A DNA stretch of 48,123 bases from Acidobacteriota bacterium (GTDB lineage: Bacteria > Acidobacteriota > Terriglobia > Terriglobales > SCQP01), in the NCBI GenBank assembly GCA_027451805.1, contig DAIDIF010000053.1, positions 1-48,123 on the forward strand, in the 5' to 3' direction. This document shows, one piece after another, positions 41,528-46,453 of the stretch; the stretch's first letter is position 1; every line of letters begins with the position of its first letter. The position numbers and the translations under genes were made by a program. The notes beneath the pieces were generated by a model. It searched no databases. It had not been told where the DNA came from and saw nothing but the letters and a program-made list of their open reading frames with translations.

Positions 41528-42823
41528 TTACGCCTCCAGCGCCCGGTCCAGGATCGCGTCCGCGTGGCGCAGGTGGCGGCTGAGGTCGAACGCCTGGGCG
41601 ATCACCTCCGGCCGCACCGCGGCGCGGATCTCGGCGTCGGCCTCGATCAGCGCGCGGAAGTCGCCGCCGGTCTGCCACGCCTCCATGGCGTTGCGCTGCA
41701 CCCAGCGGTAGGCCTGCTCGCGCGCGACGCCGGCATCCACCAGATCGAGCAGGAGTTGGCCGCTGAACACCAGCCCGCGGGTGAGCTCCAGGTTGCGCCG
41801 CATCTGGTCCGGGTAGACCAGCAGTTGGTCCACCAGGCCGGTGATCTTGTCGAGCATGTAGTCCAGCAGGATGCAGGAATCGGGTAGCACCACCCGCTCC
41901 ACCGAGCTGTGGCTGATGTCGCGCTCGTGCCAGAGCGCGACATTTTCCAGCCCCGCCTGGGCGTTGCCGCGCAGCAGGCGCGCCAGGCCCGAGATCTGCT
42001 CGCTCACCACCGGGTTGCGCTTGTGCGGCATCGCGCTCGAGCCCTTCTGCCCGGCGGAGAAGTACTCCTCCGCTTCGCGCACCTCGGTGCGTTGCAGGTG
42101 CCGGATCTCGATCGCCATCATCTCCAGCGAGGCGCCGGCCACCGCCAGCGCGCACAAAAAGGCGGCGTGGCGGTCGCGCTGCAGCACCTGGGTGGAGATG
42201 GGCGCGGGCGCCAGCCCCAGGCGCGCGCAGATGCGCGCCTCCACCTCCGGGCCGAGGTGGGCGAAGGTGCCCACCGCCCCGCTGATCTTGCCCACCCGCA
42301 TGTCCTCGGCCGCGGCTTCCAGCCGGCGTTGGTTGCGCCGGTTCGCGGCGAACCAGTTGGCGAACTTCAGCCCGAACGCGATCGGCTCGGCGTGTACGCC
42401 ATGGGTGCGGCCGATCTGCGGGGTGTGGGCGAATTCCCGCGCCCGCCGGCGCAGCACCTGCCCCAGCCGCTCCATGTCCTCCCGCAGCAGCGCCGCCGCC
42501 TGCTGCACCTGCAGCGCCTGGGCGGTGTCGATCACGTCGTTGGAGGTCAGCCCGTAATGCAGGTAGCGCGCCTCCGCGCCCACGTGCTCGGCCACGTTGG
42601 TGGTGAAGGCGATCAGGTCGTGCTTCAGCTCCGCCTCCAGCGTGGCGATGCGTGCCGGGTCGCAGCCGCCGCGCTCGCGGATGGCGCGCGCCGCCGCCGC
42701 CGGGATGATGCCCAGTTCCGCCTGCGCTTCCGCCGCCGCCTTCTCCACTTCCAGCCACTGCGCGAAGCGGTTCTCCTCCGACCAGATCGCCCCCATCCCG
42801 GACCGGGTGTAACGCGGAATCAT
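41528..42823 (-). CDS. purB: Adenylosuccinate lyase
   Basis: A 431-residue fumarase-superfamily lyase that acts twice in purine synthesis (SAICAR to AICAR, and adenylosuccinate to AMP). The superfamily signature SSAMPHKRNP is intact. Other blocks are LHYGLTSNDVIDTAQAL, IGRTHGVHAEPIAFG and WHERDISHSSVERV. The length is standard. It is divergent from pyrR, with 23 bp between start codons. Confidence 0.97.
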   Translation of the reverse strand: MIPRYTRSGMGAIWSEENRFAQWLEVEKAAAEAQAELGIIPAAAARAIRERGGCDPARIATLEAELKHDLIAFTTNVAEHVGAEARYLHYGLTSNDVIDTAQALQVQQAAALLREDMERLGQVLRRRAREFAHTPQIGRTHGVHAEPIAFGLKFANWFAANRRNQRRLEAAAEDMRVGKISGAVGTFAHLGPEVEARICARLGLAPAPISTQVLQRDRHAAFLCALAVAGASLEMMAIEIRHLQRTEVREAEEYFSAGQKGSSAMPHKRNPVVSEQISGLARLLRGNAQAGLENVALWHERDISHSSVERVVLPDSCILLDYMLDKITGLVDQLLVYPDQMRRNLELTRGLVFSGQLLLDLVDAGVAREQAYRWVQRNAMEAWQTGGDFRALIEADAEIRAAVRPEVIAQAFDLSRHLRHADAILDRALEA

Positions 42824-42831
42824 GTCTCTGC

Positions 42832-42838
42832 TAGAATA
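42832..42838. promoter_or_regulatory. Overlapping divergent -10 boxes of purB and pyrR
   Basis: The plus strand reads TAGAAT at 42832-42837 (toward pyrR). The minus strand reads TATTCT at 42833-42838 (toward purB). Five of six positions are shared, and each box ends 9 nt before its own start codon. RNA polymerase could not occupy both at once. Confidence 0.45.
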
Positions 42839-42846
42839 ACCTCGCT

Positions 42847-43410
42847 ATGCCGGATGCCGCGTCCTTGCTGCGCGAAAAAGCCCAGCTCATGTCGGGCAGC
42901 GAGATCGAGCGTACCCTGGTCCGCCTGGCGCACGAGATCGTGGAGAAGAACAACGGCGCCGAGGACTTGGCGCTGATCGGCATTAAGCGCCGCGGCGAGC
43001 CCCTCGCCCGCCGCCTGGCCGCGCTCGCCGCCCGCATCGAGAGCCGCCCGGTGCCGGTGGGCACGCTCGACATTACCCTCTACCGCGACGACCTCTCCCC
43101 CCTCGACGTCAAGCCGGTGGTGCGCCCGGCCCAGATCGATTTCGACATCCAGGGGCGCAGCGTGGTGCTGGTGGACGACGTGCTCTACACCGGGCGCACC
43201 ATCCGCGCCGCCCTGGACGCGCTCTTCGACCACGGCCGCCCCCGCCGGGTGCAGCTCTGCGTCCTGGTCGATCGCGGCCACCGCGAGCTCCCCATCGAGG
43301 CCTCCTTCGTGGGCAAGTACGTGCAGACCGCGGCGCGCGAGATGGTCGAGGTGCGGCTCAAGGAAACCGACGGCAGCGAACGCGTGCTGCTGGTGGAACC
43401 CGCCGGATGA
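42847..43410 (+). CDS. pyrR: Pyrimidine regulatory protein / uracil phosphoribosyltransferase
   Basis: A 187-residue PRTase-fold protein. The PRPP-binding motif is VVLVDDVLYTGRTIRAALDAL. LALIGIKRRGEPLA and VPVGTLDITLYRDDLS are typical of PyrR. PyrR senses UMP/UTP and binds pyr mRNA, and also has uracil phosphoribosyltransferase activity. It heads the pyrR-pyrB-pyrC operon. With the -10 only 9 nt from the ATG, there is no room for a PyrR attenuator leader ahead of the gene. Confidence 0.95.
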   Translation: MPDAASLLREKAQLMSGSEIERTLVRLAHEIVEKNNGAEDLALIGIKRRGEPLARRLAALAARIESRPVPVGTLDITLYRDDLSPLDVKPVVRPAQIDFDIQGRSVVLVDDVLYTGRTIRAALDALFDHGRPRRVQLCVLVDRGHRELPIEASFVGKYVQTAAREMVEVRLKETDGSERVLLVEPAG

Positions 43411-44318
43411 GCCCGCCGCCGCATCTGCTCGGGATCGAGGGGCTGAGCGCGGCGCGGATCGAGCGGTTGTTGTCCTTGGCGCAGCGCTTCCACGCCGCCG
43501 CCCCGCCGCGCAGCCTCGCCGGCAAACGCCTGCTGGTGCTCTTCTACGAGGCCTCCACCCGCACCCGCACCTCCTTTGAGGTGGCCGCCCGCCGCCTGGG
43601 CGCGGAAACGGTCTCGGTCACCGCCCAGTCCAGCAGCATCGAAAAGGGCGAGTCGCTGCTCGACACCGTCTATACCCTGAGCGCCATGGTGATCGATGGC
43701 ATCGTCGTGCGCCACGCCTCCAGCGGCGCTCCCCGCCTGGTGGCCGAGCACGTGGACGTGCCCGTGATCAACGCCGGCGACGGCATGCACGAGCACCCCA
43801 CCCAGGCCCTGCTCGACGGCTTCACCATCCTCCGCCACCGCCCCGCCATCGCCGGCCTCAAGGTCGCCATCATCGGCGATCTGCTGCACAGCCGCGTGGC
43901 CCGCTCCAACCTGCTGCTCCTCTCCCGCCTGGGCGCCGAGGTCTGGCTGTGCGGCCCCCGCACCCTGCTGCCGCCGGAGTTCGCCGCCTACGGCCCCGGC
44001 GTCCGCTTGACCCACGAGTTGGAGGAGGCGCTGGCCGGCGCCGACGTGGTCATGGTGCTGCGCATCCAGATGGAACGCATGCGCGAGAGCTTCTTCCCCA
44101 GCGAGGCCGAGTACGTCGCCCGCTACTCGGTCACCCGCGAGCGCCTGCGCACCGCCAAGCCCGACGCCCTGGTCATGCATCCCGGACCCATGATCCGCGG
44201 GGTGGAAATCAGCGCCGAAGTGGCGGATTCGCCCCAGTCGGTGATTCGCGAACAGGTCGAAAACGGCGTGCTCATCCGCATGGCGGTGCTGCACGACGCG
44301 CTGCAGGGCGCCGCGTGA
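43407..44318 (+). CDS. pyrB: Aspartate carbamoyltransferase, catalytic chain
   Basis: A 303-residue ATCase subunit that forms carbamoyl aspartate. The carbamoyl-phosphate site is STRTRTSFE (S50-E58) and the second conserved motif is HPTQALLDG. SSSIEKGESLLDT contains the mobile-loop lysine. The length is normal. There is a 4-bp ATGA overlap with pyrR and a 4-bp GTGA overlap with pyrC, so translation is probably coupled through the operon. No pyrI is present. Confidence 0.97.
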   Translation: MSPPPHLLGIEGLSAARIERLLSLAQRFHAAAPPRSLAGKRLLVLFYEASTRTRTSFEVAARRLGAETVSVTAQSSSIEKGESLLDTVYTLSAMVIDGIVVRHASSGAPRLVAEHVDVPVINAGDGMHEHPTQALLDGFTILRHRPAIAGLKVAIIGDLLHSRVARSNLLLLSRLGAEVWLCGPRTLLPPEFAAYGPGVRLTHELEEALAGADVVMVLRIQMERMRESFFPSEAEYVARYSVTRERLRTAKPDALVMHPGPMIRGVEISAEVADSPQSVIREQVENGVLIRMAVLHDALQGAA

Positions 44319-45607
44319 GCTTGATCCTGCGCAACGGACGCCTGCTCGATCCCGGCCGCGGCCTCGACCAGGTGGGCGATCTGGTGCTCGAGGGCGACCG
44401 CATCCGCGCCCTCGGCCCCGGCATCGCCGCCGCCTCCCCCGGCTCGCTCGACTGCACCGGCCTGGTGGTCGCTCCCGGCTTCATCGATCTGCACGTGCAC
44501 CTGCGCGAGCCCGGCTTCGAGTACAAGGAGACCATCGAGAGCGGCACCCGCGCCGCCGCCGCCGGCGGCTTCACCGCCGTCTGCGCCATGCCCAACACCA
44601 GCCCGGTCAACGACAACGCCGGCGCCACCGCCTACCTCATCCAGCGCGCGCGCGAGTTCGGCCACGCCCGCGTCTATCCCATCGGCGCCATCACCGCCGG
44701 CAGCCAGGGCGAGCGCCTGGCGGCGCTGGGGGCGATGCGCGAGGCCGGCGCGGTGGGCTACTCCGACGACGGTCGCCCGGTGAGGAACGCCCAGATCATG
44801 CGCCGCGCCCTCGAGTACGCCTCCATGCTCGGCTTGCCCGTCGTTCAGCATGCCGAAGACCTCGACCTCTCCGCCGGCGGCAGCATGCACGCCGGCGCGG
44901 TGGCGCTGCGGCTGGGGCTGCGCGGCATCAGCTCCGCCAGCGAGGCCACCGTGGTCGCGCGCGACCTGCTGCTGGCGGAAGAGACCGGCGCCCGGCTGCA
45001 CATCGCCCACGTTTCCACCGCCGCCTCCGCCCGCCTGCTGCGCGAGGCCAAGTCCCGCGGCGTGCGCGTCACCGCCGAGGTCACCCCCCATCACCTCTCC
45101 CTCTGCGACGAGGACCTGGTTCCCTACGACGCCAACTTCAAGATGAACCCGCCGTTGCGCTCCCGCGCCGACCGCGATGCCCTCATCGCCGCCCTCGCCG
45201 ACGGCACCCTCGATGCCATCGCCACCGACCACGCCCCTCACGCCGCCCACGAAAAACAGCAGGAGTTCGACCGCGCCCCCTTCGGCATCCTCGGCCTCGA
45301 GACCGCCCTGCCGCTGGGCCTGCGCCTGGTCGCCGCCGGCGCCATCCCGCTCTCCCGCTTGCTGGACGCCCTCAGCGGCGCCCCCGCCCGCGCCTTCGGC
45401 TTGCCCGGCGGCGCGCTCGTCCCCGGCGGCCTCGCCGACGTCACCGTCTTCGATCCCGCCGCCGCCTGGACCTATGATCCCGCCCAGGGCTGCTCCAAGA
45501 GCCGCAACTCCCCCTTCGCCGGCTGGACGTTGCAAGGCCGCGCCGTCTACACCATCGTCGGCGGCCGGGTGACGTTTGCCTCACGCGGCAACTTGGACAC
45601 GCCCTGA
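44315..45607 (+). CDS. pyrC: Dihydroorotase
   Basis: A 430-residue amidohydrolase forming dihydroorotate. The metal ligands are in DLHVHLREPG (H61, H63), and the later motif is ATDHAPHAAHEK. GFTAVCAMPNTSPVND and NPPLRSRADRDAL are class I dihydroorotase blocks. The GTG start overlaps the pyrB stop (44315-44318). A frame open upstream inside pyrB is a shadow. Some ATCases need an associated dihydroorotase; active-site residues here look intact. Confidence 0.96.
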   Translation: MSLILRNGRLLDPGRGLDQVGDLVLEGDRIRALGPGIAAASPGSLDCTGLVVAPGFIDLHVHLREPGFEYKETIESGTRAAAAGGFTAVCAMPNTSPVNDNAGATAYLIQRAREFGHARVYPIGAITAGSQGERLAALGAMREAGAVGYSDDGRPVRNAQIMRRALEYASMLGLPVVQHAEDLDLSAGGSMHAGAVALRLGLRGISSASEATVVARDLLLAEETGARLHIAHVSTAASARLLREAKSRGVRVTAEVTPHHLSLCDEDLVPYDANFKMNPPLRSRADRDALIAALADGTLDAIATDHAPHAAHEKQQEFDRAPFGILGLETALPLGLRLVAAGAIPLSRLLDALSGAPARAFGLPGGALVPGGLADVTVFDPAAAWTYDPAQGCSKSRNSPFAGWTLQGRAVYTIVGGRVTFASRGNLDTP

Positions 45608-46067: not shown

Positions 46068-46381
46068 GCTTCCAATTGGCGGTTCACGATGCCCCCGAAC
46101 GCCCCCTCTTCCTCCTCGTCCAAGTCCTCGTCTTCGTCCTCGTCCTCGTCCTCGTCTCCGTCCTCCTCCTCGTCCTCGTCCTCGTCGTCGAAGTCGTCGT
46201 CGAACTCGTCGTCCTCCTCGTCTTCGTCATCTTCGTCGTCGGTGACGCGCTCGAGTTCGAGCGGGTGCGGGCTGACAATCTCGAACTGGGCGCCACATCC
46301 GCCGCAACTCACCACGCCGCCCTCCTGTAGTTGTTCTTCGTCCAAGTCCATGTCGGCTTCGCACGCGGGACAGTACACCAT
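46055..46381 (-). CDS. LysW-like zinc-ribbon protein with long acidic tail
   Basis: A 108-residue protein. The first 45 residues form a zinc ribbon with C4, C7, C26 and C29. MVYCPACEADMDLDEEQ and CGAQFEIVSPHPLELE resemble LysW, the amino-group carrier of lysine/arginine synthesis (EVVSLDPLRLE-type end of the ribbon). Residues 47-93 are almost all Asp and Glu. The C-terminus is VNRQLEACAR, not the EDWGE of true LysW. GGAGGAG precedes the ATG. No lysX, lysZ or argW-type neighbour is present, so a role as carrier is unproven; a DNA-mimic or metal-binding role is also possible. Confidence 0.75.
   Translation of the reverse strand: MVYCPACEADMDLDEEQLQEGGVVSCGGCGAQFEIVSPHPLELERVTDDEDDEDEEDDEFDDDFDDEDEDEEEDGDEDEDEDEDEDLDEEEEGAFGGIVNRQLEACAR
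46107..46240. repeat. Trinucleotide-like simple repeat coding the acidic tail
   Basis: On the plus strand this is a run of TCC/TCG/TCT triplets. On the minus strand it is GAC/GAG/GAT codons, encoding the Asp/Glu tail of the LysW-like protein. The unit is imperfect. Slippage could vary tail length between strains. Confidence 0.8.
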
Positions 46382-46453
46382 GTCTCCTCCGGAGTTGCCA
46401 CAACGCCTTCCTAAGATTAAGATACACAGGTTCGCGGCAGGGCGGGAGGCGGC

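Follow-up and report, generated by a model that had tools for sequence, protein, structure and literature searches.

At the purB-pyrR locus of an Acidobacteriota bacterium, two divergent genes stand so close together that one may ask whether a single promoter element serves both of them, and whether such sharing would tie purine to pyrimidine synthesis. The original prediction, made on the window (the whole stretch of DNA analysed here, 48,123 nucleotides long), answered yes on both counts. The genes concerned are the following:

41528..42823, minus strand: purB, adenylosuccinate lyase, 431 aa (TIGR00928, 504.9 bits), with the N-terminus MIPRYTR, as at the starts of relatives
42847..43410, plus strand: pyrR, 187 aa (NF003549, 237.3 bits)
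43407..44318, plus strand: pyrB, aspartate carbamoyltransferase (NF002032, 387.2 bits), overlapping the pyrR stop
44315..45607, plus strand, left end approximate (open frame 43949-45607): pyrC-like dihydroorotase (Amidohydro_1 and DHOase matches)

The predicted gene identities hold, for purB, pyrR and pyrB by profile scores above the curated cut-offs, and at the pyrC position as an amidohydrolase/DHOase-like protein. Further along the window, at about 46080-46400 on the minus strand, a small frame begins with a CxxC zinc-ribbon-like motif and continues into a long Asp/Glu run.

The spacer between the directly read start codons of purB (ATG at 42823, minus strand) and pyrR (ATG at 42847, plus strand) is gtctctgcTAGAATAacctcgct, with a GC content of 48%. 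It contains these features:

42824..42846, no strand: purB-pyrR spacer with both -10 boxes inside, 23 bp, read directly
42829..42837, plus strand: extended -10 for pyrR, TGc TAGAAT, 9 nt to the ATG, from direct reading and family comparison
42833..42838, minus strand: -10-like TATTCT for purB, 9 nt to the ATG, read directly
42844, plus strand: predicted transcription start of pyrR, 7 nt past the box with a 3-nt leader, from geometry
42826, minus strand: predicted transcription start of purB, 18 bp from that of pyrR, from geometry

TAGAAT on the plus strand (42832-42837) and TATTCT on the minus strand (42838-42833) overlap by 5 bp within TAGAATA at 42832-42838. Near-identical -10 boxes on opposite strands had been predicted, and direct reading bears out the boxes, their coordinates and the 9-nt distance to each start codon. 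The added statement that they share five of six positions is correct for the overlapping base pairs (42833-42837), but as hexamers read in the same direction they agree at 3/6 letters. The extended -10 TGc stands 5' of the pyrR box, which matches TATAAT at 5/6 positions, whereas direct reading of the spacer finds no TG before the purB box, which matches at 4/6. Within TAGAATA, positions -7 and -11 are reciprocally paired across the strands, a pairing known from bidirectional promoters, while at -18 both predicted starts have C instead of T. Both genes also carry the two marks of leaderless genes, namely a TANNNT a few nucleotides 5' of the start codon (9 nt) and no Shine-Dalgarno sequence, with none of the cores GGAG, GAGG or AGGA within 16 nt of either start.

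We propose, with a probability of roughly 0.62, that the spacer is a bidirectional sigma-A-type promoter with a symmetric -10, giving two nearly leaderless mRNAs with no coupling between the genes. RNA polymerase would melt the single symmetric -10 (TAGAATA) in either orientation, one polymerase at a time, and the two mRNAs would have leaders of about 3 nt and starts 18 bp apart. A short leader must be assumed because both boxes lie 9 nt from their ATG, compared to a mode of 6 in the genus. That one overlapping -10 serves both genes, as originally predicted, is probable by anatomy, and for steric reasons two polymerases would not fit on it at once. The pyrR direction is expected to be the stronger because of its TG and its better match to TATAAT. 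Both genes would be at basal expression, neither setting the other, although an activator site could lie within the ends of the coding regions.

This arrangement has counterparts in two known systems. The first is the class of bidirectional promoters that arise from -10 symmetry (Warman, Grainger and colleagues; PMC12825309, PMC10268837). In this class, divergent starts are 7-25 bp apart, usually 18; the 18-bp geometry is the commonest form, spacings of 10 and 23 bp are also common, and a T at -18 is usual but not obligatory. Overlapping -10s, reciprocal -7/-11 positions and a predicted 18-bp start spacing are likewise found at purB-pyrR. Here, however, the start codons are almost at the predicted starts, so that next to no leaders are expected, and there is no -18T. 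The second system is the leaderless TANNNT genes (Zheng 2011, PMC3160421), which are put at a mean of 13.3% of genes in Acidobacteria (3/3 genomes). As in those genes, TANNNT is found just 5' of the ATG without a Shine-Dalgarno sequence in a high-GC acidobacterial genome, but at 9 nt instead of the usual 6, and with one box common to two genes. Searches of open-licence PMC text found no paper describing a promoter shared by purB and pyrR, or a single -10 serving two leaderless genes; in a paper on leaderless genes of Deinococcus-Thermus (PMC12340547), the words divergent, bidirectional and opposite are absent.

To place the locus among its relatives, pyrR and purB queries were each searched against 60 genomes, including the window's own (G000). 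At E 0.001, pyrR had matches in 59/60 genomes and purB in 60/60; the pyrR match was full in 58 genomes, with weak paralogues only in G001 and nothing in G013. Within the window's genus, the purB-pyrR spacer measured 23 bp (G000), 57 bp (G004), 78 bp (G003) and 707 bp (G002). The fifth congener, G001, was left out of this comparison, as its purB runs off the end of a contig (the part present is 92% identical) and no pyrR gene was found. Outside the genus, the two genes were side by side in 0/54 genomes with both genes (of 55 outside); they were found on separate contigs or at least tens of kilobases from each other. Separate contigs are no proof of distance in fragmented assemblies, but near-closed assemblies agree. 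The 23-bp spacer is therefore not conserved, a result that the original prediction had itself named as speaking against it. A conserved purB-pyrR regulatory spacer is rejected on the variable lengths together with an adjacency seen only inside the genus.

In G002 (contig C157, 321-912 of the locus), pyrR and purB are separated by a gene for a PemK/MazF-like toxin and a small companion frame of 72 aa. In G004, the longer spacer is made up mostly of a short sequence repeated in tandem (cctggcccctgtcc, about 1455-1487 of the locus), and this may be a route by which the length of the purB leader drifts.

On the pyrR side, TGNTAGAATA followed by 9 nt and ATG is kept in G000, G004 and G003, and TAGAATA is retained in G003 and G004. 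On the purB side, the distance from the reverse box to the start codon is 9 nt in G000, 43 nt in G004 and 64 nt in G003, where a GGAG is present at purB. Given these longer distances and the GGAG, use of the box by purB would not be tied to leaderless translation.

The pyrR box extends well beyond the genus. In all 12 readable pyrR genes of the family (G001 and G013 gave no pyrR gene and were left out), TANNNT stands 8-10 nt ahead of an in-frame ATG, and in 11/12 it comes with the extended -10 TG. The same table, which covers the 30 family and order genomes with loci out of the 58 where pyrR matched in full, shows a TANNNT box 5-10 nt before an ATG in 4/18 order-level pyrR genes. In the family, the box is kept regardless of the upstream gene, also where purB is elsewhere, and therefore belongs to pyrR; it is very probably a real promoter element. 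Since the box is family-wide and the adjacency was seen only in the genus, near-leaderless pyrR would be a family trait and shared use an addition in one lineage. Under the bidirectional promoter that we favour, the pyrR box, an extended -10 before a pyrR that is near-leaderless throughout the family, would be an old and selected element, and the purB box its reverse reading, with the purB start codon near enough here to use it. Sharing would then come from promoter symmetry plus the loss (or absence) of a purB leader.

How much of the double box could be chance? In 200,000 shuffles of the 23-bp spacer, TANNNT appeared 5-10 nt from both ends in 2.9%, and 24% of the shuffles with a pyrR-side box also carried a purB-side box. 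Such boxes are not rare in a spacer of this GC content. The reverse box in particular is cheap by chance (12-24%), because a TANNNT needs just one added A, and in the sampled genome 11.6% of TANNNT occurrences are followed by one. The double box thus appears to exceed chance modestly, which is suggestive and no more, and the purB box seems weaker-supported than the pyrR box. In the window as a whole, TANNNTA is found at 14 places compared to 6.4 expected from shuffles, and 0/100 shuffles reach 14; uneven AT-rich spacers are perhaps part of the cause.

The ease with which a reverse box arises would also fit a one-way pyrR promoter. TANNNT symmetry would then produce the reverse reading as a side effect, and purB transcription would begin elsewhere (inside pyrR) or start only very weakly in the spacer. 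That the pyrR box is conserved without purB nearby agrees with this, as do the missing TG and -18T on the purB side. We nevertheless consider it unlikely, although worth keeping in mind. The reverse box is the only minus-strand TANNNT in the 80 nt nearest purB, as the next one lies at 84 nt, inside pyrR, and the lack of a Shine-Dalgarno sequence at purB fits a start right at the spacer. Moreover, the extra A after the pyrR box is present in 3/3 congeners with purB at most 78 bp away but in 2/9 other family genomes (one-sided p 0.045, kinship ignored).

The pyrR gene stands at the head of a pyrB-pyrC cluster, as in PyrR-controlled pyr operons of the Bacillus type, but here without their leader, and no PyrR-binding RNA element was found. 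The PyrR leader RNA (RF00515) was absent from the window and from 41/41 genomes, with the reservation that filtering becomes stricter in searches of more than 40 genomes, so that weak matches may be missed; 3/14 control genomes did match (B. subtilis, Lactococcus and Thermus). The idea of a PyrR-binding leader ahead of pyrR is therefore rejected. Classical upp exceeded the cut-off in 0/14 family genomes, compared to 11/14 controls. With both the leader and upp missing, PyrR may be mainly a uracil phosphoribosyltransferase here, and pyrimidine control and uracil salvage in the family would rest on something else, perhaps on PyrR as an enzyme. Start-site choice at the pyrR initiator could sense nucleotide pools in place of PyrR attenuation, which would suit the absence of RF00515 where controls match and the G found 7 nt past the box in 11/12 family pyrR sequences. 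We find this improbable, since these discriminator letters, compared here among pyrR genes, may be a plain compositional or translational preference.

Leaderless starts are not limited to this locus. In gene calls from samples of G004 and G000, TANNNT is concentrated 5-9 nt ahead of the called starts, most often at 6 nt. Among genes that are first in their unit, it occurs at a distance of 5-10 nt in 37/175 (G004) and 20/145 (G000), compared to 9/175 and 7/145 at 25-30 nt, counts that are indicative, as start calls are rough: the purB start, for instance, was called 27 nt inside the gene (gap of 50 instead of 23). A scan for divergent genes, also indicative although it tried all nearby starts, covered 1.6 Mb from eight genomes with 197 divergent pairs called, of which 35 loci had a start pair 13-45 bp apart. 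Boxes (TANNNT 5-10 nt before the start) on both strands were found at 5/35 loci, compared to a shuffle mean of 0.57 and a maximum of 4 (300 shuffles), and all five are in G000 and G004, the source of half the sample.

Two of the five double-box loci, purB/pyrR and fmt/yggX, have the TANNNTA form. In the other three only TA is common to both boxes, which is the geometry of starts 23 bp apart; these pairs are a PCYCGC protein with a lipid A acyltransferase, a phosphopantetheinyl transferase with a multicopper oxidase-like protein, and DUF1572 with purM. The names come mostly from profile matches, with the multicopper oxidase and purM identified by sequence reading. Judged by these annotations, the partner genes appear to have unrelated functions and no common pathway logic.

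The fmt (Formyl_trans) and yggX (Iron_traffic) genes are divergent in 5/5 genus genomes, with TATNATA in all five, and their spacers are as follows:

G000, contig C242: 18 bp
G001, contig C202: 18 bp
G002, contig C96: 16 bp
G003, contig C126: 34 bp
G004, contig C16: 17 bp

Therefore, in four of the five genomes (16-18 bp) these are apparently two leaderless genes on one -10, and as a shared-box case fmt/yggX seems better conserved than purB/pyrR. Of the eight other family genomes inspected by eye, 6/8 have TANNNT 6 nt before the yggX ATG, the two exceptions being G007 and G009, and fmt was seen beside yggX in none of the eight. This suggests that for yggX, as for pyrR, the box belongs to the gene while the partner changes.

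A scan for the exact pattern CAT-N5-TANNNTA-N5-ATG (17-bp gap) found 6 places in 14 family genomes compared to 1 for the reversed control, and 7 compared to 23 in 27 other genomes; the pattern is blind to GTG starts and other gap lengths, and so misses both fmt/yggX and purB/pyrR. At most two of the six family places have two plausible open frames. Given these frames and the counts outside the family, the scan did not establish a class of such genes.

The chances seem even that divergent genes of this genus can collapse onto one symmetric -10, leaderless on both sides, within 16-23 bp of intergenic DNA. The start codons would coincide with the 18-bp-spaced transcription starts, translation would be by leaderless initiation only, and fmt/yggX (TATNATA) would be the conserved case and purB/pyrR a lineage-specific one. 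If this is true, any change in the box would affect both divergent genes.

That polymerases excluding each other at the shared box balance purB against pyrR-pyrB-pyrC expression, as originally proposed, is highly improbable: the 5-bp overlap would rule out simultaneous binding, but the spacer drifts from 23 to 707 bp among four congeners, the adjacency is unseen outside the genus, pyrR has a box of this kind even without purB next to it, comparable short shared-box pairs of the genus join unrelated functions, and in E. coli, according to PMC12825309, basal transcription at bidirectional promoters was too low for polymerase competition (5/5), which appeared only on strong activation of one direction. 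The tight purB-pyrR arrangement instead seems to be what promoter symmetry ordinarily produces, and no balancing device.

For the pathway question the locus has little weight, as purB and pyrR are linked only locally, in a single genus, and with a spacer that drifts. More promising is the side observation that pyr operons in the family apparently have no PyrR leader at all. For promoter biology, the purB/pyrR spacer would be a clean test system for how polymerase chooses its orientation, with no leaders interfering, and it would show how little DNA divergent genes need where leaderless translation is allowed.
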